The notes under the pieces are model-generated. The model saw only the letters and a list, made by a program, of their open reading frames with translations. It made no database searches and was not told the DNA's origin. 64,000 bases of DNA from NCBI GenBank assembly GCA_004362315.1, contig SNWL01000003.1, positions 1,178,001-1,242,000 on the forward strand, given 5' to 3'. Below are positions 4,029 to 30,037 of this stretch, piece by piece. The number at the start of each line of letters is the position of its first letter. Position 1 is the first letter of the stretch. Source of the DNA: Mycobacterium sp. BK086 (GTDB lineage: Bacteria > Actinomycetota > Actinomycetes > Mycobacteriales > Mycobacteriaceae). The position numbers and the translations under genes were made by a program.

Positions 4029-4778
4029 CTAGCCTGTCGTGAAGTCGATCTTGGCCCGACGGTAAAGCAACACGGTATTCACCGTCATACCCGCCGCGAA
4101 GAACACTGTCGGCAGCCAAATTCCGACAATGCCGTCCCACGAAAACGGTCCCGATTTGAAGAAGACGGCCGCCACACCGCCGGCGCCGATGGTCGCGACC
4201 CACAGGTTCATATAGGCCGCCCAGCGCGGCCAGGTCGGGTCGGGTCGGGTGTCCATGAAACCGGCGATCGCCATGCAGACGTACTGCATCGAGTACGTGG
4301 GGATGAGCATCGTCCAGACCAGCCACCCGTAGTCGTTGAAGCCGCGAATGATCTCCGGGCTGATATCAGGCCGGAAGCTCGCCAAAAGCCAGAACAGGCA
4401 GATGATCTGGAAGAACGCGACGAGGATCACGGCCCCGCCGAATTGAATGGGTGCCAGCAGTGCGCCGCGGCCCTCGATCCGTCGAATCTCTTTGGACACG
4501 ACGGTGTAGAAGGGCAGCAGGAAGCTGGAGGCAAACAGCGCTCCGATCAACCCGAATCGGATCGAGGCTTGGTTGTCGAGGTAGAACCTTGCGATGTCAG
4601 CGGCACTTGCTCCCGGCGACGGTGGCGGGAAGAAGCCGGCGAGGAAAACGAACGGGATTCCGAAGCCGATGATGGCGACCGGCCAGGCCCAGATGCACGC
4701 GTAGTGCAATCGGCGCCGGATCGCGGATGCCGCCTGGGACGTCGCCTCGGCGCCGACGGCTGGGTAGGTGGTGGACAT
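4029..4778 (-). CDS. integral membrane protein, ~240-residue family (copy 1)
   Basis: A 249-residue protein with about six hydrophobic segments and no function I recognise. It is a paralog of the proteins at 7416-8162 and 28462-29172. All three share a PP.SP...SA..IA..Y..N-type loop after the first segment, FRP...PE....ND in the middle and FFKSGPF.W(D/N)G near the end. It is last in the operon CrtI-like oxidoreductase, COX3-like, COX4-like, this gene. The same four families are linked again at 26753-30037, implying a shared complex or pathway. The conserved polar residues in loops could bind substrate or partner proteins. Function unknown. Confidence 0.85.
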   Translation of the reverse strand: MSTTYPAVGAEATSQAASAIRRRLHYACIWAWPVAIIGFGIPFVFLAGFFPPPSPGASAADIARFYLDNQASIRFGLIGALFASSFLLPFYTVVSKEIRRIEGRGALLAPIQFGGAVILVAFFQIICLFWLLASFRPDISPEIIRGFNDYGWLVWTMLIPTYSMQYVCMAIAGFMDTRPDPTWPRWAAYMNLWVATIGAGGVAAVFFKSGPFSWDGIVGIWLPTVFFAAGMTVNTVLLYRRAKIDFTTG

Positions 4779-4804
4779 GGCATGCCTTTCTGGTGTGGGA
4801 GATT

Positions 4805-5107
4805 TCAGATGAGGTTCTGGGACATTCCGAAGATGACGACGAGCACTCCGCAGGTCACCACGCAGTACGCCTCGAAGACACCGCGCAGCGCTATGGGGGC
4901 GTGGCGCAATTCCATGAAATACAGTCCGATGAAACGGATCTTGACGAATGCGATGAGCAAGATGCTGAACCCGGCGAGCGAGTGACTACCGCCCACGCCC
5001 GGCACATGGCGGCTACCACCCAGCGACCAGGTCAGCAGCGTTGCGAGGATCAGAACGAACCAGACGATGCTGGTTCGGGTTCGCAGCAGGGGTGCAAGCA
5101 TATCCAT
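4805..5107 (-). CDS. cytochrome c oxidase subunit IV-like small membrane protein
   Basis: About 100 residues with three membrane segments. The signature FVKIRFIGLYFMELRHAPIALR between segments 2 and 3 is typical of prokaryotic COX4-type subunits (caa3/bo-type oxidase accessory subunit). It begins 8 bases after the COX3-like stop at an ATG at 5107; another ATG two codons later is possible. Its paralog is at 29768-30037, again directly after a COX3-like gene. No heme-copper subunit I or II is visible in the window, so it probably serves something other than a standard terminal oxidase. Family assignment good, role unknown. Confidence 0.8.
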   Translation of the reverse strand: MDMLAPLLRTRTSIVWFVLILATLLTWSLGGSRHVPGVGGSHSLAGFSILLIAFVKIRFIGLYFMELRHAPIALRGVFEAYCVVTCGVLVVIFGMSQNLI

Positions 5108-5115
5108 CCGTGCTC

Positions 5116-5724
5116 TCAATTCAGAAGGTAGATAAGGGGAAACAGGGCGATCCAGAGCAAATCGACCATGTGCCAAAAGCAGCCGCCACCTTCGAACCAC
5201 GCAAGTTGGCGTGTGTCATGGTGTTTCCGGCGGGCGGAGAACATGAGATAGGTGAGCACCGCCAGGCCGAGGAGTAGATGAAACCAGTGCAGTGCGGTCA
5301 GCAGGAAATAGAACATGTAGAACGTGTTCGTCTGCGGCGTGATGCCGGCGTCGATCTTGCCGACGTACTCGATGACCTTGAGGACCGAGAACGCAAGCCC
5401 ACACCCGATCGCTCCGGCAATCAACGGTTGTGCGGGCTGAGGTACTCCGCGGCGGACAGCGGACACCGCCAGCACCACCAGCATCGAACTCACCAGCAGC
5501 AGAAGCGTATTGATCAGACCGAAGGTGGCGTTGAGATGCAACTGGGAGCTGTCGAACAGCGCGACGTCCTTGTTCCGATACACCAGGAAGGTCCCGAACA
5601 GTACGGCGAATACCGCCATGTCCCCCAGAATGAAGATCCATATCCCGGGCTCGCCAGGGACGTGCTCTCGCATTGCCGCCCCGTCACGTAACCCGGCGCA
5701 GTCCGCTACCTGAGTTGTGCTCAT
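5116..5724 (-). CDS. cytochrome c oxidase subunit III-like (COX3/NorE type) membrane protein
   Basis: 202 residues and five hydrophobic segments. Family markers are GEPGIWIFILGDMAVFAVLF near the start, INTLLLLVSSMLVVLAV in segment 2, ALHWFHLLLGL in the centre and FWHMVDLLWIALFPLIYLL at the end. COX3-type subunits bind lipid and stabilise oxygen delivery to heme-copper oxidases; NorE-like relatives work with NO reductase. The start is set by an ATGA overlap with the upstream oxidoreductase stop (5721-5724), so translation is coupled. The longer frame to 5808 would run into that gene. As an orphan with no subunit I nearby, it is a candidate partner of the CrtI-like flavoenzyme. Confidence 0.85.
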   Translation of the reverse strand: MSTTQVADCAGLRDGAAMREHVPGEPGIWIFILGDMAVFAVLFGTFLVYRNKDVALFDSSQLHLNATFGLINTLLLLVSSMLVVLAVSAVRRGVPQPAQPLIAGAIGCGLAFSVLKVIEYVGKIDAGITPQTNTFYMFYFLLTALHWFHLLLGLAVLTYLMFSARRKHHDTRQLAWFEGGGCFWHMVDLLWIALFPLIYLLN

Positions 5725-7331
5725 CGGGACAACCTGCGGCGCAGTGACATCCGGCTCTTCCATCCACGAAGGACTGCGCGCGCCGCCTGCTGACCGGGTA
5801 TTCCGCAAATCCCTGCGCTGGGATGAGTGCTGGCGCCACTGAGGAACAGGCCATCAACGGGCGTGCGATAACCGGCAGCGCCGCGCAGTGGTCGCAATGG
5901 GCCGAAGCGAGTGGCGACCGGGTCGACGTGATAAACGTTGCCGTCTGGTGCGCGAAAGCGAGCTTCGATGTCTTCGGGCGTCATCACCCGCCGGTCGATC
6001 TCGAGCTTCTCGAGTCCGTCGATGTACTTGGCGGCGTCACCGAGAACATGCGCGGCAGTGGAAGCGGCCAGCTCTGGCCAAGGACGAGCGGGGTTCGCGG
6101 GCGCAATGCCCGACCAGAACCAGAATGTGTCCTGACCGTCGGGTGCTTGCGAGGGGTCCATTCCAGTCGGCAGGATGGCGAAGCCCGGGAGTGGGTCGGC
6201 AACGGCACCGCGAGCGCAGGCACTCCAGGCAGCAACGTGATCGTCAAAAGTGGTCAGGCACAGCGCTGGTCGACGCAGATCGACATCGTCGCGCCGATTG
6301 TTCTGATGAGTCGACAGCTCCGCACGACCACTCAGAGCGACGTCGATCTTGAACGAGGACGCGTGCGTAGATGAAGTCGGAATGTAGGGCACCCGCTTGG
6401 CGAGACTCTCCGGCAGCACACCGTCCGGCAACCAGTCACCAAGCACCGTGCCGGCATTGTTGCTGGTCACTACGCTGTGGGCGAATAGCTGCTCGCCCGA
6501 TTCCAGCTGGACGCCACTGACTCGGCCGCCACGAACCACCAGGGATTCGACGGCAGTATCCAGCCGGACCGAACCGCCTGCATCAGCGAAGCACCGTGCC
6601 AGCGCGTCGGTGATCGAGCCCGTCCCGCCTTGGAATCGACCGACGCCGACCCGATGGATCAGCCCGAAATAGATGAGCACCCAGGCAGTTCCATCGGCAC
6701 CGATCGGCGCAAAGCACGGAACTGCCGCCAACAGCGACTTGATGCGATGGTCCGAGAAGCGGCTGTCGATGAACTCTGCCTGGGACGTCGTCAAGAATTC
6801 GGTGAGCGGCCCAAAGCGCCGTGGGTGGCGCGCGGAACGAACGGCTCCCCTGGCGATTTCGGGCAGAGCCGGCCGCAACGGATTGCTGTTCATGTACGGC
6901 ACCGCGATGTTCATGGCCGCCTCGAGCGCATTGGCGAGCTCAAGGTAGGCGCGGCCGTCCGCCCGGTTGAACCGGCCGACCTCTTCGGCCGTGCGGACAG
7001 GATCGCGGTGGATGCACAGCGAACTGCCGTCGTCGTCCAAAAATGCGTACGGCGTGTCGATGTCGAGTTCGCGCAAGCCGTAGCGAGCGAGGTCCAGGTC
7101 CCGAGCAATGGTGGTCGTCCGCCAGAGCGAGGAGTCCATCGCACCCTCGTTGATGCGGTGTTCGGGCGCGCCGGGCAGGACCGCGTTGGTCGACGTCATG
7201 CCCCCGACCGAGGGTGACGACTCGACGATGAGCACGTTCAGCCCGGCGCGCGCGAGATAACACCCAGCTGTCAGGCCATTGTGGCCCGCACCAACGATCA
7301 GAACATCGGGTTGGGACCCCTGCTGCGACAT
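5721..7331 (-). CDS. CrtI/PYROXD2-like FAD-dependent oxidoreductase (copy 1)
   Basis: 536 residues with a dinucleotide-binding GAGHNG at residues 14-19, then VESSPSVGGMTSTN, and the FAD-closing C-terminus GLFLSGASTHPSAGICGIPGQQAA. This is the phytoene-desaturase/PYROXD2 superfamily: FAD enzymes that dehydrogenate or isomerise long hydrophobic substrates at membranes. AAGGAAG precedes the ATG at 7331 by about 5 bases, which I prefer to the GTG at 7337. It heads an operon with COX3-like, COX4-like and ~240-residue membrane genes and is divergent from another ~240-residue gene. Paralogs are at 26753 and 32462. Substrate unknown; a lipid or isoprenoid is the likeliest class. Confidence 0.88.
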   Translation of the reverse strand: MSQQGSQPDVLIVGAGHNGLTAGCYLARAGLNVLIVESSPSVGGMTSTNAVLPGAPEHRINEGAMDSSLWRTTTIARDLDLARYGLRELDIDTPYAFLDDDGSSLCIHRDPVRTAEEVGRFNRADGRAYLELANALEAAMNIAVPYMNSNPLRPALPEIARGAVRSARHPRRFGPLTEFLTTSQAEFIDSRFSDHRIKSLLAAVPCFAPIGADGTAWVLIYFGLIHRVGVGRFQGGTGSITDALARCFADAGGSVRLDTAVESLVVRGGRVSGVQLESGEQLFAHSVVTSNNAGTVLGDWLPDGVLPESLAKRVPYIPTSSTHASSFKIDVALSGRAELSTHQNNRRDDVDLRRPALCLTTFDDHVAAWSACARGAVADPLPGFAILPTGMDPSQAPDGQDTFWFWSGIAPANPARPWPELAASTAAHVLGDAAKYIDGLEKLEIDRRVMTPEDIEARFRAPDGNVYHVDPVATRFGPLRPLRGAAGYRTPVDGLFLSGASTHPSAGICGIPGQQAARAVLRGWKSRMSLRRRLSR

Positions 7332-7358
7332 CCACACTTCCTTCGTCGAACCGATAGT

Positions 7359-7386
7359 TGTATGTTAAGTACCTGCTATACATACA
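7359..7386. promoter_or_regulatory. inverted repeat in the divergent promoter
   Basis: TGTATG and CATACA form the ends of a 28-base dyad between the divergent oxidoreductase operon (start 7331) and the membrane gene (start 7416). Size and position suit a TetR-type operator controlling both directions; the regulator is unknown. Confidence 0.4.
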
Positions 7387-7415
7387 TAGTGACAATCTGG
7401 ACTTCAAGGAGACGA

Positions 7416-8162
7416 ATGTCAACTGCCACTCGGTCGCAACCACGCGGGAGTGCCCTGGCCGATCCCCAGATGACCTTTCAGCGGATCTGCGCCATCAGCG
7501 GAATCATCTGTCCGCTGTTGTTCTTCGGCGCCTTCATCGCCGCCGGTTTTGTCCCTCCGTTGGCGCCGTCGTCCAGCGCGAGCGAAATCGCCTCGCATTA
7601 CCGCGAACATGCGAATGGCATCCGGCTGGGAGCCGGGATCATGCTGTTGAGCGGGATGTTCTACGCGGCTTATACCGCGGTGATGTCAGGGCAGATGCAG
7701 AGAATTCGCGGCGTGCACCAAACGGTGGTCTTCACCCAACTCGCCGCCGGCGCGTTTGCCTGTCTGACGTTCCTGGTGCCTGCAATGTTCTTTGCCGTCA
7801 CGGCGTTTCGGCCCGAGCGCTCGCCAGAGACCACCCTGCTACTCAACGACGTGTCGTGGATCTTCCTGGTGATGCCCTGGCCGCCCTTCATGGTGCAGAA
7901 TTTCGCCTTCGCGTTCGCCATCCTGTCCGACAAAGGCCCGCGGCCAATCCTGCCCCGCTGGGTGGCCTACCTGAACATCTGGGCACCGATCGTGTTCACC
8001 CCCGGCATCATTCTCCAGTTCTTCAAGTCCGGACCATTCGCCTGGAACGGAATATTCGTGTTCTGGATCCCTGCAACAGTTTTCGTCGTCCAGTTCGCGG
8101 TCAACATGGTGTGGTTGCTGCGTGCAATCAAGGCCGAGCAATCAGAAGCACTCGCCGCCTGA
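7416..8162 (+). CDS. integral membrane protein, ~240-residue family (copy 2)
   Basis: 248 residues with about six membrane segments, starting at ATG 7416 behind AAGGAGA (7406-7412). It shares with the copies at 4029 and 28462 the motifs PPLAPSSSASEIASHYREH after segment 1, FRPERSPETTLLLND in the middle and FFKSGPFAWNG near the C-terminus. It is transcribed divergently from the CrtI-like/COX3/COX4 operon, across a 28-base inverted repeat, so the two units are probably co-regulated. Having a second copy flanking the same operon suggests a hetero-oligomer or two related substrates. No known function. Confidence 0.85.
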   Translation: MSTATRSQPRGSALADPQMTFQRICAISGIICPLLFFGAFIAAGFVPPLAPSSSASEIASHYREHANGIRLGAGIMLLSGMFYAAYTAVMSGQMQRIRGVHQTVVFTQLAAGAFACLTFLVPAMFFAVTAFRPERSPETTLLLNDVSWIFLVMPWPPFMVQNFAFAFAILSDKGPRPILPRWVAYLNIWAPIVFTPGIILQFFKSGPFAWNGIFVFWIPATVFVVQFAVNMVWLLRAIKAEQSEALAA

Positions 8163-8175
8163 GCAGGTCCCGGCC

Positions 8176-9747
8176 TCAGCGACCCTCGAGCCTCTCCACG
8201 AGGCGGAACTTCTGCACCTTGCCGGTGGCCGTCGTCGGCAACTCGTCGGCGCCGCACAGCACGACCTTCTTGGGCACCTTGAACCGCGCGAGCCGGCCGC
8301 GGCATCGGTCGATGATCTCGTCCTCGGTCAACGCGACCCCGGAAACCGGAACCACTACGGCACAGCCGATCTCGCCCCACCGGTCGTCGGTCAGGCCGAT
8401 CGCATACACCTGGCTGATGTCGTCGTAGCCGGCCAATAGATCCTCGATCTCCTTCGGCATGACGAGCTCGCCGCCGCTTTTGTACAGCTCCTTGCTGCGT
8501 CCGGTGACCCGCAGATACCCGTCGGCTCCGACGCAGCCGATGTCGCCCGAGTGCAACCAGCCGTCCCGCAACGCCGCTGCCGTTTCCTCTGGCCGGTTCC
8601 AATAGCCGATCATCGTCGTGGGACCGCGGGAGACGAGTTCACCCTCGAAGCTCGAGTACTCCACTAACGCGTCGGTGCCCTCGACACCGGCCGCACCCGC
8701 GAGCTTGGGGCGGCCCACCGTCTCGGCGCACCGCGTCAACGGATCCTCGGGCAGGGTGAGCGTCATGGCTCCGCCACACTCGGTCATGCCGTAACCGGTG
8801 ACAATCTCGCTGACGCCCAACACCTCTCGGATCTGCTCCCACAATCGGATCGGTGCGGGCGCGGATCCGCACAGCACGGCGCGCAGCGAGCTCAGATCGT
8901 AGTCGCCGCGTGCCGGACTCTCGACCATCGCGAGCGCCATCGTCGGCACACACAACATGTCGGTGGCCCCGTGGCGGTCGATACCGGCGAAGTACCCCTC
9001 CGCACTGAACGTCGGCTGCAGGATTACTGCGCCGCCGACGAACATCGCCGACAGCAGGCCTTCGATGTAGGCGAACATGTGATAGCACGGCAGCGAGAAC
9101 AGGATCCGCCGACCGTCTTCGTAGGCGCGGGTGAGGGCGGAGGCGTACGCGGTCCGCAGCACCGCATCGTGAGAGGTCAAGACGCCCTTGGGAAACCCGG
9201 TGCTGCCCGACGTGTAGAGCATGTCGGCGGGCGCGTCGGGTGAGACCAGTGCTGACGGTTTCCCGGATCCGGGGAGGTCGGCGGTCCGCACCACGGTGAC
9301 GTCCGGCCCTTCCCACCCCGAGAGAATCTCGTCGAACATCGCGCAATAGTCGACGTCACCGAAACGGCTCATCGCCACGACCACCCGGCAGCCCGAATCG
9401 GCGAGCACATAACGAAGTTCGTCGCGCCGGTACAGATAGTTGAACGGGACAGCGATCGCGCCGAGTCGGGCGATGGCGAATTTCACCGTGACGAAATCGG
9501 CGCTGTTGGCCATCACCATTCCGACCCGGTCGCCCGGTCCGACGCCGAGCGCGGCCAGTCCGGCGGCCAGTCGTGCCGCCTCTTCGGCCACCTCCCGATA
9601 ACTGAGCGTCACCTCATCGGTGATGACGAAGGGCCGGTCGGGAAACCACGCCGCACAGCGCTCTAGCCAATCGGCCAACGTCATCGGTTCCCATATCGGA
9701 AACTGCGCACGCAGCGCATCCCGGCGCGAGTCGATCGTGATGCTCAC
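8176..9747 (-). CDS. acyl-CoA ligase (FadD-type AMP-binding enzyme)
   Basis: 523 residues, a normal length for the ANL adenylating superfamily, which activates a carboxylic acid with ATP and joins it to CoA. Visible motifs are the P-loop YTSGSTGFPKG, the adenine motif GYGMTECGG, the hinge region SGDIG...GYLRVTGRSKELYKSGGE and a C-terminal catalytic lysine in TATGKVQKF. Its start overlaps the stop of the next ligase by four bases (9744-9747). It is the last gene of the twelve-gene operon from 20371. It may activate the pathway's entry substrate or a later cleaved acid; the substrate cannot be read from sequence. Confidence 0.92.
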   Translation of the reverse strand: MSITIDSRRDALRAQFPIWEPMTLADWLERCAAWFPDRPFVITDEVTLSYREVAEEAARLAAGLAALGVGPGDRVGMVMANSADFVTVKFAIARLGAIAVPFNYLYRRDELRYVLADSGCRVVVAMSRFGDVDYCAMFDEILSGWEGPDVTVVRTADLPGSGKPSALVSPDAPADMLYTSGSTGFPKGVLTSHDAVLRTAYASALTRAYEDGRRILFSLPCYHMFAYIEGLLSAMFVGGAVILQPTFSAEGYFAGIDRHGATDMLCVPTMALAMVESPARGDYDLSSLRAVLCGSAPAPIRLWEQIREVLGVSEIVTGYGMTECGGAMTLTLPEDPLTRCAETVGRPKLAGAAGVEGTDALVEYSSFEGELVSRGPTTMIGYWNRPEETAAALRDGWLHSGDIGCVGADGYLRVTGRSKELYKSGGELVMPKEIEDLLAGYDDISQVYAIGLTDDRWGEIGCAVVVPVSGVALTEDEIIDRCRGRLARFKVPKKVVLCGADELPTTATGKVQKFRLVERLEGR

Positions 9748-11357: not shown

Positions 11358-12214
11358 ACGGGATTGGTGCCCAGCTTCGCCTGGCTCATATCGCTGATCT
11401 CCGACCAGCGCGCGGTGATTTCGTCCAGGTCCGGGGCCGCGGCGAACGTGACACCGTCGTTCTGGAACTGGGCGACCCGCTGGACCAGCCCGCCGCCGAC
11501 GACGAACACCGAACCGGTGTCGTGATTCTGCTCCGACAGCAGGTAGCCCACGGCCGGTGCGACCAGCTCGGGGTTGAGCTTGTCCAGGACTTCCTGAGGC
11601 GCGATGTCGGCGGTCATCCGGGTGGCGGCCAGTGGCGCGATCGCGTTGGCGGTGATGTCGTACTTGGCGCCCTCGATCGCCAGTGTGTTGATCAGACCGA
11701 CCAGACCGGCCTTGGCTGCGCCGTAGTTGGCTTGCCCGAAGTTGCCATACAGCCCGCTGGTGGAGGTGGCTACGACGATCCGGCCGAAGCCTTGCTCGCG
11801 CAGATGCGGCCAGGCCGCGCGGATGACGTTGTAGCCGCCGTGCAGGTGCACCTGCAGCACCGCATCCCAATTCTCCTGTGTCAGCTTGTGGAATGCGCCG
11901 TCGCGCAGGATTCCCGCATTGCTGACGACGCCGTGCACCGCACCGAACTCATCCAGCGCGGTGGCGATGATGTCGGCGGCACCTTCGGCGGTGGCCACCG
12001 ACGAGTAGTTGGCGACGGCCCGGCCACCCTCACTACGGATCTCCTGCACCACCGCATCGGCCATGCTGGTGCCCGATCCCGATCCGTCCCTGGCTCCGCC
12101 GAGATCGTTGACGACGACCAATGCGCCATTGGCGGCGAGGAATCGCGCGTATTCGCGACCCAGCCCTCCCCCGGCACCAGTGACGATGACGACGCGATCC
12201 TGCAATCCTGGCAC
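11354..12214 (-). CDS. short-chain dehydrogenase, MFE-2 3-hydroxyacyl-CoA dehydrogenase type
   Basis: 286 residues. The nucleotide motif TGAGGGLG is followed by VVVNDLGG, a pattern common in the 3-hydroxyacyl-CoA dehydrogenase domain of peroxisomal multifunctional enzyme 2. VSNAGILRD and the catalytic YGAAK are present. It probably oxidises a 3-hydroxyacyl-CoA with NAD+. The start is a GTG behind AAGGAGA. It follows the Ltp-like thiolase in the operon and overlaps the ligase by ATGA. In a beta-oxidation-like pathway it would act between the crotonases and the thiolases of the same operon. Confidence 0.88.
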   Translation of the reverse strand: MPGLQDRVVIVTGAGGGLGREYARFLAANGALVVVNDLGGARDGSGSGTSMADAVVQEIRSEGGRAVANYSSVATAEGAADIIATALDEFGAVHGVVSNAGILRDGAFHKLTQENWDAVLQVHLHGGYNVIRAAWPHLREQGFGRIVVATSTSGLYGNFGQANYGAAKAGLVGLINTLAIEGAKYDITANAIAPLAATRMTADIAPQEVLDKLNPELVAPAVGYLLSEQNHDTGSVFVVGGGLVQRVAQFQNDGVTFAAAPDLDEITARWSEISDMSQAKLGTNPV

Positions 12215-12242
12215 TAGCTGTTCTCCTTGAACTCGTCGATTA

Positions 12243-20423: not shown

Positions 20424-20480
20424 TAGGTTAAACCAATCGCTGGGGTGGCCTCAAGTGCGCCCCGACCAGGAAGGGTCAAC

Positions 20481-21278: not shown

Positions 21279-21290
21279 GTCGCGACCCCC

Positions 21291-21355: not shown

Positions 21356-21385
21356 TCTGTCGGCCGCTGCTGTCAGCATTCCGCC

Positions 21386-22303: not shown

Positions 22304-22309
22304 TTATCG
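22292..22309 (+). repeat. dispersed repeat, partial copy C
   Basis: GCGAGCCTGTAGTTATCG is the first block of the repeat found at 21291 and 30045. It contains the stop codon of the preceding gene; the later blocks are absent, so this is a fragment or a chance match. Confidence 0.35.
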
Positions 22310-22315
22310 CGTGGG

Positions 22316-23119
22316 TTACTCGAACTTCTTGTCGACAACGACAGCTTCGGCGGGCACCTTCGGCTCCACGAGCACTCTGCCCAACAGCCCGACGGTGCTG
22401 GCGATGCCGGCGACCACCGTCAACGCGGCCAGATGGACGAGCACCATCGGCGGATTGTCGACCGAATGGCGCACCGACAGATACAGGATCCCGGTGCCGA
22501 ACAGTCCGGCCGCGAACGCCATCGGCACGATCGGGATCAGGGAGAGGTACGCAATTCCACGCAGGTGTGGCGCCAGCCGGTAGATCACGATCCCGCTGAC
22601 GAGCGCCGACATCGCGTTGGTGAAGCCGAGGAAGATCGGGTAGCCGAGCACGACGAACGGCTGGCTGTCCTGGTACTCGTAGACTTTCAGCACGCTGACG
22701 TAAGTCATCTCTGCTGCGATCGCCATCACCACGATGAACCCGTACATCGTCCACACCGTGCGGATCGCCGGGCGGCGCGCAATGGTCCTGGCGATGAACA
22801 CGCTGGCGCCACCGTAGAAAGCCAGATACGCCGCGGGCACCCAGATCGGTTGGTGGCTACCGAATGTCGTGTAGAGGTGCCACTGGCCCTGTTCACGGAA
22901 CCACAAGCCGTACAGGTGATCGAAGAGAGGTTCCATCAAACAGGTGAGCGTCCCGCTGACCAGAACGAACAGCGGCCAGACGATCGATTCCCGGCGGCAC
23001 AGCCGCACAACCCACACCACCACCATGGCCGCCAGGGCGAACGTGAGCGCAGTGGCGATCCATTGACCGGTCGGCCAGACGGACGTATCGATTCCCAGCG
23101 TCGTTACCGGTGCCATCAC
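22316..23119 (-). CDS. integral membrane protein, AveC-like superfamily (short type, copy 1)
   Basis: 267 residues, about seven membrane segments. Two patterns recur in the proteins at 25627, 31489 and 38007: a G(G)...L.EP..D.LG block (here SGTLTCLMEPLFDHLYGLW) and E.....LY.Y...QPF...G.P....N (here VYEYQDSQPFVVLGYPIFLGFTN). Conserved acids inside membrane segments suggest catalysis or ion binding rather than structure only. It follows the AveC-like gene by 9 bases and ends 12 bases from the convergent gene at 21386-22303. I infer a distant relation to AveC; function unknown. Confidence 0.8.
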   Translation of the reverse strand: MMAPVTTLGIDTSVWPTGQWIATALTFALAAMVVVWVVRLCRRESIVWPLFVLVSGTLTCLMEPLFDHLYGLWFREQGQWHLYTTFGSHQPIWVPAAYLAFYGGASVFIARTIARRPAIRTVWTMYGFIVVMAIAAEMTYVSVLKVYEYQDSQPFVVLGYPIFLGFTNAMSALVSGIVIYRLAPHLRGIAYLSLIPIVPMAFAAGLFGTGILYLSVRHSVDNPPMVLVHLAALTVVAGIASTVGLLGRVLVEPKVPAEAVVVDKKFE

Positions 23120-23128
23120 GTCCTCCGA

Positions 23129-24127
23129 TCAGCCGGCCAGCAGATAGCTGGGCAGATTGGCATACGACGTTCCGATCAGCCCTAGCCAGTTGAACGGCAG
23201 GTGGTACACGAATACCAATGTGACCATGCAGAATCCGAGGACCGCGAAGTTCCGGACGTGACCACGAAGCGACGGGCGCCACCGCTCGGCCCCGAGCTCG
23301 ATGGGCGACTCCCCCGCCGGCCGCTCCTCGGCCTCCATCCGCGCCCAGGTGAATACGCATCCCACGAAGGCAACGAGGACCGACTCGTAGATCGGGAACT
23401 GGTGGACCTCACCCGCCCACAACGTCAGGGGCTCATAGGTTTTCGCGAATGCGTACGCGTGAGTGGTCCTGATCACCACGTTCTCCACCACGAAATCGAA
23501 GATGAATTCGAAAATGAAGATAAAGACAAACAGCCGGAACTTGGACATGGCCGGCCACCGACGCCGCACCCGCTGCGCTTCATGGCAGGCCACGATGGCC
23601 ACCCCGGCGCAGAAGTAGATGTACATCGGCGGGCCCCAGATCAGGGACTCCGCATAGCGACTCGGCGCATCCGGATTGTGGAACGGGAGGAATCGGACCC
23701 AGACGCCGCGATTGACATTCGCACTGTTCCACGCGAACAGATACTGCTGCACATTGAGGAAGGCATCCGCGACGAAGCAGATGATGCCGCCGATGACGAA
23801 CTTGCCGTCCAAGCCCATCTTGCCGGTCTGACGAATCGGCTTCACGACGCAGTACCAGATGAAGGCCACCATCACCGCCAGGCTGATCGCCTCGAAGATC
23901 CGCAACGCGATCAGCCGCCAGTCCTCCATGACATCGGGCCCGATTCGCGGCGCCGGGGTGAACTCCTCGCCCGAAGTCACCCATCGCACAATGACTTCCA
24001 CGCAGATCACAAACCACACGACGCCGATGAACGCCAGGAACGTCGCGGGCCCTTGCCGCCCGAGCGGCGGTGGCTTTAACGCTCGCTCCTCGGCGACTGC
24101 GTCACCGCGGCCGGTGGTCAAGGACAT
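23129..24127 (-). CDS. AveC-like (spirocyclase family) integral membrane protein
   Basis: 332 residues with about eight to nine hydrophobic segments. The pattern LDGKFVIGGIICFVADAFLNVQQYLFAWNSANVN...W..FLP, plus a late FPIYES segment, resembles AveC of avermectin biosynthesis, a membrane protein with dehydratase and spiroketal cyclase activity. Mycobacteria carry several such homologs of unknown role. It forms a two-gene operon with the shorter membrane protein at 22316 and is divergent from a TetR gene across an ACAAA-TTTGT dyad. A cyclase or dehydratase acting on a hydrophobic molecule is inferred from homology. Confidence 0.7.
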   Translation of the reverse strand: MSLTTGRGDAVAEERALKPPPLGRQGPATFLAFIGVVWFVICVEVIVRWVTSGEEFTPAPRIGPDVMEDWRLIALRIFEAISLAVMVAFIWYCVVKPIRQTGKMGLDGKFVIGGIICFVADAFLNVQQYLFAWNSANVNRGVWVRFLPFHNPDAPSRYAESLIWGPPMYIYFCAGVAIVACHEAQRVRRRWPAMSKFRLFVFIFIFEFIFDFVVENVVIRTTHAYAFAKTYEPLTLWAGEVHQFPIYESVLVAFVGCVFTWARMEAEERPAGESPIELGAERWRPSLRGHVRNFAVLGFCMVTLVFVYHLPFNWLGLIGTSYANLPSYLLAG

Positions 24128-24142
24128 CTAAACCTCCAGTAG

Positions 24143-24160
24143 ACAAACTAGGTCATTTGT
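24143..24160. promoter_or_regulatory. inverted repeat between AveC-like and TetR genes
   Basis: ACAAACTAGGTCATTTGT: five-base arms ACAAA/TTTGT around an 8-base centre, located between the divergent starts at 24127 and 24167. A likely operator for the TetR protein encoded next to it. Confidence 0.4.
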
Positions 24161-24166
24161 AACCGT

Positions 24167-24787
24167 ATGGGTGATAATGACTACATGCCTGACCAGATGT
24201 CAACCACACCGCGGGCCGCAGCGCGGCAACGCATACTCGACGCTGCCCGGGACTTGTTCCGCGCCAACGGAGTACGTGCGGTGACGATGACGGACGTGGC
24301 CCGAGGCGCCGGCTACAGCCGGCAGATGGTCTACAAGGTGTTCTTCGATCGCCGCGAGTTGGTGCTTGCCGCCGCCATCGAGCGGATCGTCGAGATCGCC
24401 GATGCCGCGACGCCCGGCGCGAGCGTGCCCGACGGGAGTTTCACCGAGTCGTTCGTCGAGTTGTCCGTCCAGATCATCGAGACGCTGCGCAACGACCCGG
24501 AATTGTCGGAACTGCTCGGCGACGGCAGCCCGATCACCGCGCACGAGGCGCTGTGGTCGCCCGAATTGGTCGAGCGCGGTCTGCGGTTCTGGCAGCCTTG
24601 GCTGGACGTCGGGCGCGCCCGGCACCTGCTTCGTGACGACTTGTCGAACCGCGATCTCTCAGATTGGCTGCACACCGTTTATGCGTCGATCATCTTGCGC
24701 CGCAACATCCCTCAGGACGACGAGCGCGCGATGATCGAACGTTTTGTGATGACATCGCTGGCCATGGCTAGCGTCGCACCCCGCTGA
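24167..24787 (+). CDS. TetR family transcriptional regulator
   Basis: 206 residues with a clear N-terminal helix-turn-helix (VTMTDVARGAGYSRQMVYKVFFDRRELV). In-frame ATGs also occur 6 and 10 codons later, so the exact start is uncertain. It is divergent from the AveC-like operon, with a dyad in the 39-base gap, and is most simply its repressor. It converges tail to tail with a second TetR gene, 2 bases apart. Ligand unknown. Confidence 0.88.
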   Translation: MGDNDYMPDQMSTTPRAAARQRILDAARDLFRANGVRAVTMTDVARGAGYSRQMVYKVFFDRRELVLAAAIERIVEIADAATPGASVPDGSFTESFVELSVQIIETLRNDPELSELLGDGSPITAHEALWSPELVERGLRFWQPWLDVGRARHLLRDDLSNRDLSDWLHTVYASIILRRNIPQDDERAMIERFVMTSLAMASVAPR

Positions 24788-24789
24788 AC

Positions 24790-25416
24790 TCAGTTGCCGT
24801 AGAGCGTGCCGTTCCACATCGCCACGAGTGGGCCCACCATGGCTTCCTCGTCGGTGAGCTCGGGATCCACCCCCATACCGGCGATGTGCAGCACCCGCTC
24901 GGTACTCCAGAACAGCGTGGCGGCCAGCGTCCGGCTCGGCAGGTCCGAGGTGATCAACCCGGCCTCGCGCTCCCGATCGATCTCGACGGCACCGGCGGCG
25001 ACGAAGCGCTCCACAACCGCGAGCCAGAGCGAACGCAGCGGCCGCTCGCTGTGCCAATGCTGGTTGGCCGCCTGCAGCACCGCCCGATGCCGGTGCCACG
25101 CATGGGTCACCGCTCGGATACTGCGCTCCAACGCCAGTGCCGGCGGATCGTCGGGCGAGCGCTCCAAGAACGGCTGCACCGTCCCGAAGATGTCCTCCAT
25201 CGCCGCCTCGAGCAGGCCGGAGAGCACCGAGAACTTCGACGAGAAGTAGAAGTAGAACGTTGCCCGCGAGACGTTCGCCTCGGTGAGGATCTGCGCCACG
25301 CTGATATCGGCGAACGGCTCACGTTCCATCAGTCGCGCCGTCGCCGCGTAGATGGCATCGACCGGCGGCACCCCGTTGAGGTCAACCGATCTCGGTCGAC
25401 GCGTCGCCTCGGTCAT
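24790..25416 (-). CDS. TetR family transcriptional regulator
   Basis: 208 residues starting MTEATRRPRSVD at 25416; the frame is open to 25533 but that part is intergenic and includes a shared promoter motif. The helix-turn-helix is ISVAQILTEANVSRATFYFYFSSKFSVL. The region between this gene and the divergent membrane protein gene (25627) holds ACAAATTTAATCCAATT, close to the motifs in front of the two acyl-CoA operons. This protein is therefore a candidate regulator of the whole set and perhaps of itself. No ligand prediction is possible. Confidence 0.88.
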   Translation of the reverse strand: MTEATRRPRSVDLNGVPPVDAIYAATARLMEREPFADISVAQILTEANVSRATFYFYFSSKFSVLSGLLEAAMEDIFGTVQPFLERSPDDPPALALERSIRAVTHAWHRHRAVLQAANQHWHSERPLRSLWLAVVERFVAAGAVEIDREREAGLITSDLPSRTLAATLFWSTERVLHIAGMGVDPELTDEEAMVGPLVAMWNGTLYGN

Positions 25417-25463
25417 CGCAGCCACCTTACCGTCGCCGCGCACCGCCTCAGACGGCACGTGCA

Positions 25464-25480
25464 ACAAATTTAATCCAATT
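25464..25480. promoter_or_regulatory. third copy of the shared promoter/operator motif
   Basis: ACAAATTTAATCCAATT matches the sites at 3268 and 20399. On the minus strand it includes TAAATT, a TANNNT -10 element about 50 bases before the TetR start at 25416. It lies in the 210-base divergent region before the 344-residue membrane gene. Confidence 0.45.
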
Positions 25481-25626
25481 TCAAACAGGGTATACACAAT
25501 GTCTAGACACGATGTTAGTGTGAGCTGGTCCACAGTCGCCAGATGGCGGCATCGCGCCGGTTGCCGCGGAGAAACCGCAGTTGAAGCGGGCTTGCGGGCA
25601 CACGATCATAAGGAGAGGCCGAATCG

Positions 25627-26661
25627 ATGAGTCCCACCTTGAGCCTGAATTGGTCCCCCCTGGTCCAGGGGCAGGGCTGGCCGCCTAACATCCAGCCGGC
25701 CCCCGGAGCTTTCAGTGTCAGCCTGACCGCGGAGATCGCTTTCTTCCTCATCGCCGGCGCCCTGGCGGTGGTCGTGGCACTCCCCTGGGCGATCCGGGCC
25801 GCGGTGCGCAGCCGCAACTACGTCCCGCTGATCGTGCTCGCCAGTGGCCTGATCTGCAGCCTGCTCGAGCCGATGCTCGACTTGCTCGGCCATCTGCACT
25901 GGGCCAACAACCTGATCCCCGCTTTCACCAACTTCGGCATCACCGTGCCCCTCCTGATCCCGCCGTGCTACATGGCGTTCCTGGGACTCGAGGCGTACTT
26001 CTGCTACTTCGTGATCCGCAACGGCGCCCACGCGAGCCACTTCGTGATGCTGCTGGGGATGGGCATCGTCACTGATGCCGTCATGGAGACTGCGGGTATC
26101 AACCTGGGCACCTACGTCTACTACGGGGTGCAGCCGTTCAGCTTCCTGAACTTCCCGTACTGGTGGGGCTTCATCAACGGCGGTTCGTTTGTCACGATCG
26201 GCGCCATCCTCGCCTTCGCGGTCCCGAGACTCAAGGGCGCCCAGAAGCTCTTGCTGCTGCTGGTGGCTCCGTTCGGCATGATGGTCGCCTACTTCGGTGT
26301 GGGCTTCCCGCACATCCTGATCCACAACTCCACGCTGCCGACCGCGGTCCGCTGGCTGGGCGCCGCCCTCATGATGGCGATGATGGTGGGCTGGATGTTC
26401 CTGCTGCATCGCCTTGTGGGACGGCCGAATTCGCTGCCCGCCCCCAAGTGGACGTTCTGGCGGGTCTTCGCCTACGGCAAGTTCATCCCGACCCGCAAGG
26501 GCCGCCAAGAGCTGTGGCGCAAGATGTGCGAGGAAGGTGGCGTCAAGCCCGGCGACGGGATCGCCGTCGACCCGGAGGATCCCGCTCAGGCCCTCGTGGT
26601 CGGCCCGACCATCATCATGAACGGCAGCCAGCAGAACCGCCAGCCGGCCGCCTCCCGCTAA
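25627..26661 (+). CDS. integral membrane protein, AveC-like superfamily (short type with C-terminal tail, copy 2)
   Basis: 344 residues, about seven membrane segments plus a ~70-residue hydrophilic tail. Shared motifs are ASGLICSLLEPMLDLLG early and METAGINLGTYVYYGVQPFSF...PYWWGFING later, matching the proteins at 22316, 31489 and 38007. AAGGAGAGG lies before the ATG. It is the first gene of a plus-strand cluster that continues with a CrtI-like oxidoreductase, but a terminator-like hairpin (26669-26715) separates the two, so expression of the later genes may be partly uncoupled. Function unknown; a membrane cyclase or isomerase is one possibility given the conserved acids. Confidence 0.82.
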   Translation: MSPTLSLNWSPLVQGQGWPPNIQPAPGAFSVSLTAEIAFFLIAGALAVVVALPWAIRAAVRSRNYVPLIVLASGLICSLLEPMLDLLGHLHWANNLIPAFTNFGITVPLLIPPCYMAFLGLEAYFCYFVIRNGAHASHFVMLLGMGIVTDAVMETAGINLGTYVYYGVQPFSFLNFPYWWGFINGGSFVTIGAILAFAVPRLKGAQKLLLLLVAPFGMMVAYFGVGFPHILIHNSTLPTAVRWLGAALMMAMMVGWMFLLHRLVGRPNSLPAPKWTFWRVFAYGKFIPTRKGRQELWRKMCEEGGVKPGDGIAVDPEDPAQALVVGPTIIMNGSQQNRQPAASR

Positions 26662-26668
26662 CCCTCGG

Positions 26669-26715
26669 AAGCGGTGGGCCGGGTCCGAGTGCAAACCGGT
26701 TCCGGCCCATCGCTT
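26669..26715 (+). terminator. terminator-like hairpin
   Basis: AAGCGGTGGGCCGG (26669-26682) pairs with CCGGCCCATCGCTT (26702-26715) at 13 of 14 positions and is followed by further T residues. It sits between co-directional genes, so it may cause partial termination before the CrtI-like gene. Confidence 0.6.
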
Positions 26716-26752
26716 TTCCACCCACCACCCCTACTTTCGATGAGGTTTTGTC

Positions 26753-28465
26753 ATGTCCCAGAATGCCCAGCCCCCGCGTGAAGCCGATGTCGTCGTCGTC
26801 GGCTCCGGGCACAACGGCCTAGTCGCGGCGGCCTACCTGGCCAAGGCTGGGCTGAACGTCCTCGTCGTGGAGGCCGCTGCCACCGCCGGCGGTATGACGT
26901 CGACGAACTCCTTCGCACCGGAAGCTCCGGAATACACGATCAACGAAGCCTCGATCCAGGCGTCGCTGTTTCGCACCACGACCATCAACGACGACCTCGA
27001 GCTGTCGACGCGTTACGGCCTGCGCCAGACCGTCATCGATCCCGCCCACTTCCAGCTGGCCGCCGACGGCAGCTCCCTGGGACTCTGGCGCGACCCGCGT
27101 AAGACGGCATCCGAGCTGGAGCACTTCTCCCGCAAGGATGCTCGTGCGCTCCTGGAACTCTACGAAGTGATCGACGCCGCCGTCGAAATCGGCCTGCCCA
27201 TGATGCAGACCAACGTCGTGACACCCGACATCTCGGCAATCCTGAAGGCCGCCAAGGGCGTTGCGAAGAATCGCAAGCAACTCAGCGCGATCGGGCGCTG
27301 GATGGCGAGTTCGCAGACCGAAGCGGTCGAGGAGAGCTTCGAGCACGACATGATCCGGGCGCCGTTGCTGACGTCGCTGCCGTTCATGCCCTTCGACGCC
27401 GACCTGTCCGGGTGGTCGCTGATCTACCTCGGCGTACTGTCCAAATATGGCGTCGCCATGTTCCACGGCGGCACCGGTTCACTGCCCAAGGCGCTGATCG
27501 GGGTCATCAAGGACAACGGCGGTGACATCATCACCAGCTCGCCGGTGGAAGAACTCATCGTCGAGTCCAACCGTTGCGTCGGTGTCCGGGTCCGCGGCGG
27601 CACCGAGATCCGCGCCCGCCGAGGGGTTTTGACCGCCTGCAGCCCCAAGACCACGCTGACCCGGCTACTCCCCCGCGGCATTCTCGAACACAAGAAGCAG
27701 GTCGCCGCCGATCACATCCCGACCAAAAAGCGCGGTATCGCCGACGCGAAAGTCAATGTCGCACTGTCTGGTCGGGTCGACATGTCCAAGCACGAAAAAT
27801 GGCGTGGCGACGGCATCGACCTCCGGCTGGCATGCAACTGCTACCACACCTACGAGCAGGCCAAGGAAGCCGCGAAAGCCTGTGTGCGCGGTCAGGTACC
27901 CGATGCGATCCCCGGCTTGGCGCAGGTCACCAATGCTTTCGATCCGTCGATGTCGCCGCCCGGCAAGGATCTGTGGTGGTTCTGGACGGGCCTGACCCCG
28001 TCGTTCCCCGAAGAGGGCTGGGATGTGGCGCGCAAGAAGATCACCGACAGCATCATCAAAGATGCCGACCAGTACTACAAGGGTGTCGAGGACCTCCAGG
28101 TCGCGGTGCGGCCGCTGGTGCTGCCCGATATCGAAGAGCGGTTCTGGGCCATCGACGGTTCGGTCTACCACGTCGATCCGACCATCAGCCGGTTCGGGCC
28201 CAACAAGCCGGTAAGCGGATTCGCCGGCTACCGCACACCGGTGGAAGGGCTCTTCCTGACCGGATCGGGCACCCACCCGGTCGCCGGGATCAGCGGGATG
28301 CCCGGCCAAAACGCCGCGCGCACAATGCTCAAGCAATTCCGGCTGGAAGATCAGGGCGGGCGTCTCGGGGCACTGAAAGACCGGCTACGCCGGGAACGCC
28401 GGCGCGCCGCGGTCACCGCGAACCCGTACACGAGCGGGCCCAACGATCCCTTCCCGGGCCGATGA
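26753..28465 (+). CDS. CrtI/PYROXD2-like FAD-dependent oxidoreductase (copy 2)
   Basis: 570 residues. It has the GSGHNG nucleotide-binding loop at 17-22, VEAAATAGGMTSTN following it, and the C-terminal GLFLTGSGTHPVAGISGMPGQNAA closing the FAD site. It is slightly longer than copies 1 and 3, with a basic tail (KDRLRRERRRAA). The stop overlaps the next gene as ATGA. It is followed by a ~240-residue membrane protein, COX3-like and COX4-like genes, the same families linked to copy 1. A membrane-associated desaturase or dehydrogenase of a hydrophobic substrate is likely. Confidence 0.88.
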   Translation: MSQNAQPPREADVVVVGSGHNGLVAAAYLAKAGLNVLVVEAAATAGGMTSTNSFAPEAPEYTINEASIQASLFRTTTINDDLELSTRYGLRQTVIDPAHFQLAADGSSLGLWRDPRKTASELEHFSRKDARALLELYEVIDAAVEIGLPMMQTNVVTPDISAILKAAKGVAKNRKQLSAIGRWMASSQTEAVEESFEHDMIRAPLLTSLPFMPFDADLSGWSLIYLGVLSKYGVAMFHGGTGSLPKALIGVIKDNGGDIITSSPVEELIVESNRCVGVRVRGGTEIRARRGVLTACSPKTTLTRLLPRGILEHKKQVAADHIPTKKRGIADAKVNVALSGRVDMSKHEKWRGDGIDLRLACNCYHTYEQAKEAAKACVRGQVPDAIPGLAQVTNAFDPSMSPPGKDLWWFWTGLTPSFPEEGWDVARKKITDSIIKDADQYYKGVEDLQVAVRPLVLPDIEERFWAIDGSVYHVDPTISRFGPNKPVSGFAGYRTPVEGLFLTGSGTHPVAGISGMPGQNAARTMLKQFRLEDQGGRLGALKDRLRRERRRAAVTANPYTSGPNDPFPGR

Positions 28466-29172
28466 CGCGCGAGATCCAGCGCACCATGGCGATCTGTGGT
28501 GCGGCGTTCGTGCTCTTGCTGTTCCCGTCGATCATCATGATCGGCCTGCTGCCGCCGATGTCGCCGCTGCGGACCGCGGATCAGGTGGCGCAGTTCTGGT
28601 CGACCAACACCGGCCTCAAGCGCGTCGGCCTGGTGATCATGTTGGCAGCAGCGGGATTACAGGCACCCTTCGGTGCGCTGATGGCGGTCCGCATTCGGCA
28701 GATGGAGGGCACCAGGTATTCGGCGCTCGCCTACACCCAGCTCGTGGGCACCGGGCTGGCGGTCGTGGCGATTCTGATGCCGACGTTCGCGTTCGCCGCC
28801 GCGTCCTACCGCCCGGAACGCAATCCCGAGATCACCCAGGCGCTCAATGATCTGGGCTGGCTCCCGTTCGTGATGAACTGGCCGGCCGCCACCATCCAGT
28901 GTGTGGTGATCGGGTTCGCGATCTTCGGTGCCAAGACCGCCGTCTGGCCGCGGTGGCTGGGCTACTTCAACGTATGGTGCGCCTTCATCTTCGCCGCCGG
29001 TGGGCTGGTGGTGCTCTTCAAGGACGGCGTCTTCGCGTGGAACGGGCTGCTGGCTTTCTGGCTGGTTGCGGTGTTCTTCGGGGTGTGGTTCCTGGTGATG
29101 TCGTGGCAGCTGTGGGTCACCGCATCGAGTGAGGACGAATCCCGCACGGCAGAAGGCGTATTGGCGTCGTGA
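28462..29172 (+). CDS. integral membrane protein, ~240-residue family (copy 3)
   Basis: 236 residues, about six membrane segments. It carries LLPPMSPLRTADQVAQFWSTN, FAAASYRPERNPEITQALND and LFKDGVFAWNG, the three conserved blocks of the family at 4029 and 7416. ATG 28462 overlaps the oxidoreductase stop and its own stop overlaps the COX3-like GTG, so the three proteins are translationally coupled, as expected for subunits of one assembly. Function unknown. Confidence 0.85.
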   Translation: MTREIQRTMAICGAAFVLLLFPSIIMIGLLPPMSPLRTADQVAQFWSTNTGLKRVGLVIMLAAAGLQAPFGALMAVRIRQMEGTRYSALAYTQLVGTGLAVVAILMPTFAFAAASYRPERNPEITQALNDLGWLPFVMNWPAATIQCVVIGFAIFGAKTAVWPRWLGYFNVWCAFIFAAGGLVVLFKDGVFAWNGLLAFWLVAVFFGVWFLVMSWQLWVTASSEDESRTAEGVLAS

Positions 29173-29765
29173 CAGTGCTCGACGACGACGTCAAGCCCAC
29201 CAACGCGACCGAGCGCCGGATTCCGGGCGAGGAAGGCATCTGGGTCTTCGTCCTCGGCGACATGACGGTATTCGCGCTGTTCTTCGCGACCTTCATGTAC
29301 TCACGGGGAAAGAATCCACAATCCTTCGCCGCGGGGCACGCCGATCTCCACGTCGCCCTGGGAACGGTGAACACCGTTCTGCTGCTGACCAGTTCGTTGC
29401 TCGTCGCGATCGGCGTCCAGCGGGTGCTCGGTGGCGCACACCGGGACGCCACCCGCCTGTTCACCGCCGCGATCGGATGCGGCGCCGGATTCGTGGGTGT
29501 CAAAGCGATCGAGTGGACCCAATTGTTCAGCGCCGGCAAGGGTGTCGGTAGCGGTGAATACTTCTCGTACTACTTCGTGTTCACCGGCATCCATCTGATG
29601 CATGTCCTGATCGGCATGGCGATCCTGGGCCGGCTGGTCTTCCTCACCCGGCGTCCCGCACTCGAAGCACCACAACGACGGCTGTGCGAGACCGGTGGAA
29701 TCTTCTGGCACATGGTGGATCTGCTCTGGGTGGTTCTGTTCGCACTGTTCTACTTGGTGAGGTGA
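29169..29765 (+). CDS. cytochrome c oxidase subunit III-like membrane protein (copy 2)
   Basis: 198 residues with five membrane segments. Family signs are GEEGIWVFVLGDMTVFALFF, VNTVLLLTSSLLVAIGV, GIHLMHVLIGMAILG and FWHMVDLLWVVLFALFYLV. It starts with GTG in a GTGA overlap with the ~240-residue protein and is followed 2 bases later by the COX4-like gene. As at 5116, no catalytic heme-copper subunit is present. COX3 subunits do not carry metal themselves, so this one most likely serves as a lipid/O2-handling or scaffold subunit of a different oxidoreductase, probably the CrtI-like enzyme encoded upstream. Confidence 0.85.
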   Translation: MTVLDDDVKPTNATERRIPGEEGIWVFVLGDMTVFALFFATFMYSRGKNPQSFAAGHADLHVALGTVNTVLLLTSSLLVAIGVQRVLGGAHRDATRLFTAAIGCGAGFVGVKAIEWTQLFSAGKGVGSGEYFSYYFVFTGIHLMHVLIGMAILGRLVFLTRRPALEAPQRRLCETGGIFWHMVDLLWVVLFALFYLVR

Positions 29766-29767
29766 CG

Positions 29768-30037
29768 ATGACTGCCACGCGTCGGTTGACCTTGGTCTGG
29801 GTTGTGCTGCTGGCGTTGACCTTCGGATCGTTTGTGGTCGGTATCGAGCAGAGCGCCGATTTCGCCGGGGCCGCGGCGATCGCGATCATCGGGATCGCGC
29901 TGTTCAAGGTGCGGCTGATCGGCCTGCATTTCATGGATGTGCGGATCGCTCCGACCGCATTGCGCGTGCTGTTCGAGGGTTACGTGCTCGTGGTGTTCGC
30001 GGCGCTGGTCGTCCTCGACGTGGTGGTCAAGCCCTAG
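29768..30037 (+). CDS. cytochrome c oxidase subunit IV-like small membrane protein (copy 2)
   Basis: 89 residues, three membrane segments, with the COX4-type block LFKVRLIGLHFMDVRIAPTALRVLFE. It starts at ATG 29768, 2 bases after the COX3-like stop; a longer frame from 29684 lies inside that gene. It pairs with COX3 exactly as at 4805/5116. Role unknown beyond the family name. Confidence 0.8.
   Translation: MTATRRLTLVWVVLLALTFGSFVVGIEQSADFAGAAAIAIIGIALFKVRLIGLHFMDVRIAPTALRVLFEGYVLVVFAALVVLDVVVKP

Follow-up and report, generated by a model that had tools for sequence, protein, structure and literature searches.

A conserved gene trio of an unnamed membrane protein family with NorE-like COX3 and NorF-like COX4 in Actinomycetota and Pseudomonadota

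Introduction

COX3 and COX4 are accessory subunits of terminal oxidases, and in true oxidases COX3 provides a lipid-lined path for O2. A comparable pair, NorE/NorF, is found in denitrifiers. We know of no settled function for either COX3 or NorE/NorF. Here we analyze COX3 and COX4 genes in a 64,000-nucleotide stretch of DNA from Mycobacterium sp. BK086, referred to as the window (G000:C1:1178001-1242000; host genome of 6.93 Mb in 11 contigs), where they are linked to genes for a membrane protein of about 240 amino acids. The family of this protein has no name and is called MP below. Two operons of the window contain all of these components. Operon A (minus strand, 7337 to 3385) encodes a CrtO-like flavin adenine dinucleotide (FAD) oxidoreductase, COX3, COX4, MP and a TetR regulator, and operon B (plus strand, 26753 to 32319) encodes a CrtO-like protein, MP, COX3, COX4, an amine-oxidase-like protein and an AveC-related protein. 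In both Actinomycetota and Pseudomonadota, genes for MP, NorE-like COX3 and NorF-like COX4 are linked as a conserved trio, with no catalytic heme-copper subunit encoded at the examined loci. The trio is a real and widespread gene system that combines known subunit families with a membrane protein family lacking a name. In the literature searched, we found no account of an MP-COX3-COX4 system.

Distribution and composition of the trio

A scan with the six orphan COX3 proteins of the host genome gave 580 relatives, of which the best 80 loci were retained. These originate from mycobacteria, Nocardioides, Aeromicrobium, Pseudonocardia, Frankia, Nocardia and many Gamma- and Alphaproteobacteria. It should be noted that L044, labelled as a Klebsiella pneumoniae metagenome-assembled genome, and L047 (Calothrix) carry the system and are counted among the 80, and may be mis-binned. 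Within this set, COX4 follows COX3 at every locus, MP is found inside the fetched stretch at 70 loci, a CrtO gene scoring above 150 bits at 10 and a ctaD-type COX1 gene at none. As all six non-canonical COX3 genes of the host genome are paired in the same way, the association is not due to chance. This agrees with an earlier reading of the window, made from its letters without database searches (the sequence-only reading), in which COX3 and COX4 were always paired and no catalytic subunit was visible. Its proposal that the FAD oxidoreductase is a core member is not supported: CrtO was rejected as such given its presence at only 10 of the 80 loci, despite a loose linkage to MP in other genomes. 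The conserved core is MP, COX3 and COX4, not a four-gene set including CrtO, and the window module is one version of it.

The pairing was quantified on 102 COX3 rows scoring above 100 bits, taken from the window, other loci of the host genome, the 80 loci and plasmid loci, with canonical copies omitted and three NorE rows included. COX4 is located within 200 bp downstream on the same strand in all 102 rows. MP lies within 1 kb of COX3 in 83 rows and within 200 bp upstream on the same strand in 65, and CrtO is found within 10 kb in 17. Four models of heme-copper subunit I (ctaD, cyoB and two for norB) did not match anything in the window, the 80 loci or the MP-bearing plasmid loci. As a control, among 126 sources in all, these models matched only the ctaD of the host genome (in two copies of its stretch, the second being L008), Escherichia coli cyoB and norB of L102, L104 and L105, where four of the five control genes are sources of the models and only norB of L102 is independent. 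A subunit I gene alongside, as expected for a respiratory heme-copper oxidase, is thus encoded neither in the window nor at any of the 80 loci.

To determine co-occurrence, 118 Actinomycetes genomes were surveyed, scoring up to 23 MP and up to 12 CrtO candidates per genome. Orphan-type COX3 proteins (at least 181 bits) are separated from canonical ones (at most 108.5 bits) by a clear score gap. They are encoded in 17 genomes (38 genes), and MP is present in all 17. MP was detected in 18 genomes overall, the eighteenth (G027) having no orphan-type COX3 and a weak MP match of 54 bits. The hypergeometric probability of this co-occurrence is 1.3e-19 by genome and, as genomes of the same genus are not independent, 1.2e-10 by genus. 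MP is located within 1 kb of 34 of the 38 orphan COX3 genes; two of the remaining four (L120 and L121) have none within about 5 kb. Thirteen genome loci with the pair have no MP within 1.5 kb. Twelve of these (L058 omitted) were searched genome-wide, and MP is encoded in all 12 genomes, in three of them 3-5 kb from the pair. Exactly one COX1 gene is found in 13 of the 17 trio genomes.

The pairing is not confined to one strain, and it extends to plasmids. MP is present in 18 plasmid records. Among the plasmids inspected, those of Sphingobium amiense, Novosphingobium, M. branderi, Diaphorobacter, Rhodococcus and Streptomyces carry all three trio genes; on a plasmid of Sphingobium herbicidovorans, MP is 2.6 kb from the pair. 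Diaphorobacter HDW4B, a betaproteobacterium, resembles the window in encoding a flavoprotein, a small gene, MP, COX3 and COX4 consecutively, amid enoyl-CoA hydratases and Rieske oxygenases. Two plasmid records linked to nitric oxide reductase (NOR) genes have no MP (host chromosomes were not searched). The near relative of operon A in Mycolicibacterium vinylchloridicum (L062) keeps the arrangement MP, CrtO, COX3, COX4, MP, with 83% identity to the window for COX3 and 93% and 96% for the MPs, the former being the relative of the window MP at 7416-8162, beside CrtO. Actinomycetospora (L053) encodes three COX3-COX4 pairs within about 10 kb (10040, 11522 and 20319), the third COX3 match being short, low-scoring and near the end of the stretch.

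COX3 and COX4 of the trio are distinct from the normal oxidase subunits

The host genome encodes seven COX3, six COX4_pro and one COX1 protein. Its best COX3 match is the canonical ctaE (L012), located beside genes that, judged by eye, we take to encode cytochrome c, Rieske and cytochrome b proteins. The sole COX1 gene lies about 102 kb before the window. As this gene, ctaD, is the only member of the COX1 family, the genome has no NorB, and none was found at the loci examined. The remaining six COX3 genes, each with COX4 and MP-family neighbours, are distributed over the window (two), L009 (two), L010 (one) and L011 (one). That these pairs are the normal oxidase subunits of the genome, a possibility that would have refuted the sequence-only reading, was rejected based on the separate ctaE, the ratio of seven COX3 to one COX1 and the comparison of the paralogues.

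Quick trees of COX3 were calculated from 108 rows, without the window copies and rows of less than 150 amino acids (L103 included), and from 110 rows with the two window copies added. In these trees, ctaE and CyoC are split from a group containing NorE and the MP-linked COX3 proteins with a support of 99, and the NorE branch, consisting of three rows with long branches, is placed beside the MP-linked COX3 proteins. N63 and E169 are near-invariant and K107 is invariant in MP-type COX3. N63 and K107 are conserved in 96 MP-type COX3 proteins and also in NorE, but not in CyoC or the ctaE of the host genome; E169 is found in two of the three NorE. Likewise, a COX4 lysine of the MP-linked group is common to two NorF, whereas CyoD has Gln. 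The window COX3 proteins reach 79.6 and 90.8 of the 190 bits demanded by the NCBIfam equivalog cut-off for actinobacterial CtaE, and at most 87.4 of 223.75 and 68.5 of 239.9 bits for CyoC and QoxC.

Anatomy of the window

In both operons, the four families named by the sequence-only reading are tightly linked in differing order, with gaps of -4 to +26 bp. Both COX3 and both COX4 proteins pass the respective Pfam gathering cut-offs (PF00510, 23.8 bits; PF03626, 28.9 bits). That reading called the module duplicated. The same families are indeed present at both sites, but identities between paralogues of operons A and B (CrtO 43%, COX3 42%, COX4 39% over 82 residues, MP 36%) and the position of the two COX3 copies, which are not sisters in the 110-row tree, rule out a recent local duplication: the modules are old paralogues. 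Its observation was right, the TetR gene of operon A not being listed in it; the window also holds a third MP and a third CrtO-like gene (Table 1). Since the latter two and six COX3-COX4 pairs exist, the window case is one of a family of modules.

Table 1. Trio components and associated genes of the window (window positions)
Feature	Position	Strand	Details
CrtO/PYROXD2-like FAD oxidoreductase, operon A	5721..7337	-	start ATG 7331 or GTG 7337; PF01593/PF01266; NF045689 229.9 bits
COX3 (MP-linked clade), operon A	5116..5724	-	PF00510 40.4 bits; ATG 5724, 4 bp overlap with CrtO stop
COX4_pro, operon A	4805..5107	-	PF03626 44.6 bits
MP, operon A	4029..4778	-	blastp E 2.7e-33 against operon B MP
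TetR regulator, final gene of operon A	3385..4017	-	PF00440 63.1 bits; 11 bp gap to MP
Third MP, divergent from operon A	7416..8162	+	blastp matches to both other window MPs
CrtO/PYROXD2-like FAD oxidoreductase, operon B	26753..28465	+	Pfam; NF045689 258.9 bits
MP, operon B (structure modelled)	28462..29172	+	
COX3 (MP-linked clade), operon B	29169..29765	+	PF00510 52.6 bits
COX4_pro, operon B	29762..30037	+	GTG 29762 or ATG 29768; PF03626 45.4 bits
Amine-oxidase-family flavoprotein, probable operon B partner	30082..31485	+	PF01593 174.8 bits; 44 bp after COX4
AveC-related membrane protein (AveX), probable operon B partner	31489..32319	+	blastp to three other window proteins; weak hhalign family relation to AveC
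Third CrtO-like FAD oxidoreductase	32462..34081	-	46.7% identity to operon A copy; NF045689 242 bits

The amine-oxidase-family protein of operon B scores above the NCBIfam threshold for protoporphyrinogen oxidase (110.1 vs 97.85 bits), yet is encoded in a COX3/COX4 operon, and the automatic name may mislead. Further, six AveC-type membrane proteins are encoded in the window (22316-23119, 23129-24127, 25627-26661, 31489-32319, 34095-35084 and 38007-38876). Two belong to PF17198, and four form a second family connected by blastp among themselves and weakly related to AveC (hhalign 45%). Two AveC-type genes adjoin CrtO-like genes, namely 25627 before 26753 and 34095 beside 32462.

The MP family

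MP has 32 matches in the host genome, 31 of them strong. Twenty-six of the strong ones are located in two islands, C1:1.15-1.21 Mb (the window plus about 26 kb ahead of it) and C4:0.236-0.289 Mb. Both islands (L014 and L009) also hold P450, luciferase-like, EcKL-kinase and TetR genes. None of the three window MPs passes a Pfam cut-off, and no NCBIfam match was given for the 4029 and 7419 copies. When 20 MPs were compared with Pfam, only stray weak matches were obtained. An AlphaFold2 model of the operon B MP, based on 20 sequences, has a pLDDT of 92.6 and a pTM of 0.87, and its listed helices predict six transmembrane helices. An MP profile found no match among PDB sequences at E<=10. Foldseek with the MP model returned nothing at E<=0.001 (best E 0.12, TM about 0.33), and a VIA structural search gave a designed six-helix barrel, GPCRs and rhodopsins, all with middling Z scores. 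MP was also rejected as a diverged COX3 (hhalign probability 0.3%).

Residues conserved across 139 MPs are R80, E82, R117, D130, D157, P163-R164-W165, Y168, W172 and G189-P190-A192-W193-G195, numbered according to the window copy at 28462, which itself deviates at 80, 157 and 190. No alignment column filled in at least 70% of these sequences has His or Cys at 40% or more, and MP was therefore rejected as a heme or copper protein.

CrtO-like flavoproteins and neighbouring genes

All three flavoproteins of the window match NF045689 (CrtO) better than any other NCBIfam model. With scores far under the cut-off of 1000 bits (Table 1), they are not CrtO equivalogs. Nine CrtO homologues are encoded in the host genome, six of them in or beside the MP islands. 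In the genome survey, CrtO (E<=1e-90) was detected in 8 of the 118 genomes, seven of which are trio genomes. Outside the host genome, MP is encoded within 5 kb for 6 of the 18 CrtO genes, compared with an expected 0.61.

Genes next to the trio encode, among others, acyl-CoA oxidase (ACOX), P450, amine oxidase, RPE65, MlaD and EcKL proteins. An acyl-CoA oxidase gene is located 53-56 bp upstream of MP-COX3-COX4 in L010 (10904-12862, minus strand; identified by Pfam) and in L054, L073 and L075 (by resemblance), representing a conserved alternative client. Mce/MlaD lipid-import genes are found near MP-COX3-COX4 in L046, L106, L108 and L123: in L046, an MlaD-domain gene (Pfam) is 13 bp upstream of the trio, those of L106 and L108 are known by annotation and no more than about 5 kb away, and that of L123 was recognized by reading the sequence. 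In a neighbour test, 65 adjacent genes, including three window genes, were compared with 130 distant genes. P450 proteins account for 3 adjacent and 2 distant genes and luciferase-like proteins for 2 and 3. As the tallies cover the 25 commonest Pfam families, totals of O2-dependent enzymes are not comparable. For the amine-oxidase family, members were not listed individually, and its sixth member, L053, was deduced.

Proposed function and alternatives

Given that COX3 and COX4 are distinct from the normal subunits, that their pairing extends beyond one strain and that MP is tied to the pair, an alternative membrane complex, as first suggested from the window, is a fair inference. The accompanying idea that such a complex links FADH2 to the respiratory chain is not supported, considering the missing conserved His and Cys in MP and the lack of a heme-copper subunit beside the trio at the loci examined. 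Neither a redox centre nor a catalytic heme-copper subunit can be recognised in the core, which argues against electron transfer. We tentatively favour, as a possibility that could well prove wrong, a complex of MP, COX3 and COX4 in the inner membrane that would not be a respiratory enzyme. COX3 and COX4 would form its common scaffold and MP an exchangeable, substrate-specific part, of which the host genome has 31 divergent copies vs six COX3/COX4 pairs. MP might hold or pass a lipophilic compound (a steroid, terpenoid, long-chain or xenobiotic compound) in the membrane and present it to an adjacently encoded enzyme. In the window, this client would be the CrtO-like flavoprotein, a client rather than a core subunit, and elsewhere it could be an acyl-CoA oxidase, a cytochrome P450, an amine oxidase or an Mce importer. 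Via TetR regulators, the substrate would turn the module on. The excess of MPs over COX3/COX4 together with the variety of neighbours (CrtO-like, amine oxidase, acyl-CoA oxidase, P450, RPE65, EcKL kinase, MlaD/Mce, TetR) suggests a shared scaffold with exchangeable specificity in the metabolism of lipophilic compounds. COX3-adjoining MPs are dispersed over the MP tree, and COX3/COX4 thus go with many MP lineages.

A number of observations weigh against this explanation. Linkage and co-occurrence make a physical MP-COX3-COX4 complex plausible and do not demonstrate one, and the substrate-handling role of MP is inferred from gene context and the MP:COX3 ratio alone. COX3-adjoining MPs are not monophyletic (27 label changes vs a shuffled mean of 46). 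For some COX3/COX4 pairs no MP is encoded in the vicinity, so co-transcription with MP is not obligatory, and one genome (G038) encodes CrtO but not the trio. Neighbour families are diverse, several being equally common among the distant control genes, and the enrichment of the amine-oxidase family among adjacent genes depends on the window genes (Fisher 0.018 with them, 0.33 without). Finally, at least five mycobacterial loci encode MP-MP-COX3-COX4 with a divergent TetR-like gene, an opposite-strand gene downstream and no evident client, an arrangement that a stand-alone function fits better.

Such a stand-alone TetR-controlled device for transport, efflux or lipid handling, with the catabolic neighbours being incidental, is the nearest rival, if an unlikely one. 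A TetR-like gene is divergent from MP-MP-COX3-COX4 in nine mycobacterial loci including L011 (by resemblance, confirmed by Pfam in L011 only), and the Mce and MlaD-domain genes near the trio in L106, L108 and L046 would suit lipid handling. However, no transporter fold was recognised for MP in the PDB profile, VIA and Foldseek searches, the core has no ATPase or other energy source, many modules are located amid catabolic genes, and even in L011 COX4 is followed by a dehydrogenase-like gene (DAP_DH_C) on the same strand. We rate somewhat lower the proposal that the trio serves adjacent O2-dependent enzymes by supplying or buffering O2, or another small gas, via the lipid-lined path of COX3. 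Next genes on the same strand include those for acyl-CoA oxidase, three P450s, amine-oxidase flavoproteins, RPE65 and an FGE-type protein, all presumably O2-dependent, and the placement of COX3 near NorE hints at small-gas enzymes. Enrichment was examined for the amine-oxidase family only and is not significant without the window genes. Against the proposal also stand the P450 and luciferase-like counts given above; in several trio operons, no O2-dependent neighbour is evident, and O2 passes freely across membranes.

Two explanations that retain a respiratory setting appear much less probable. The single aa3 oxidase (CtaD) could use the COX3/COX4 copies as alternative subunits, swapped in under special conditions, as one COX1 is accompanied by seven COX3 in the genome and the homology to COX3 is clear. 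We consider this improbable in view of their separate clade, the residues N63, E169 and K107 that are not found in CyoC or the host's own ctaE, and their being tied to MP and not near subunit I at the examined loci. It is more improbable still that the pairs are remnants or specialised forms of NorE/NorF that act on NO or its reductase. The branch beside NorE and the signature residues in common speak for such an origin, but ctaD is the only COX1-family gene here and no NorB is encoded (other kinds of NO-consuming enzymes were not searched), all COX1-family matches in the 17 trio genomes exceed 530 bits and are read as oxidases, and the two NOR-linked plasmid records have no MP.

Returning to the favoured scaffold explanation, COX3 and COX4 may have left respiration to become part of a membrane complex of a new class, where the six-helix MP family, amplified to about 31 copies in one genome, replaces the heme-copper core and exchange of MP lets the scaffold serve many enzymes acting on lipophilic compounds; we regard this broader view as quite possible, albeit short of an even chance. 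A system joining COX3 and COX4 to MP in the absence of a heme-copper core would reveal what such subunits do alone. The trio also offers a starting point for assigning a function to a large membrane protein family that has no name, and illustrates that the annotation 'cytochrome c oxidase subunit 3' need not indicate an oxidase.

Comparison with described systems

The window flavoproteins resemble CrtO beta-carotene ketolase and PYROXD2-like oxidoreductases, CrtO being their best NCBIfam match; they contain a GxGHNG motif, which we take to be nucleotide-binding. For MP, one of the weak matches is DUF4386 (PF14329), obtained for 1 of 20 MPs (E 3e-4), the other 19 not being listed with it at E<=1. 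COX3 and COX4 of the trio share PF00510 and PF03626 with CtaE and CyoC/CyoD, subunits III and IV of aa3 and bo3 oxidases, and profile matches to COX3 chains of solved oxidases reach up to 93.1 bits. In contrast to these oxidase subunits, the MP-linked COX3 proteins form their own clade, and no subunit I is encoded adjacent to them. The NorE/NorF proteins of denitrifiers are likewise a two-gene COX3-COX4 unit outside of an oxidase operon, occupy a neighbouring tree branch and have N63, K107 and the COX4 lysine in common with the trio. Whereas the two annotated NorE/NorF examples adjoin norCBQD-type genes (three NorE rows were compared), there is no NorB here and the partner of COX3 and COX4 is MP.

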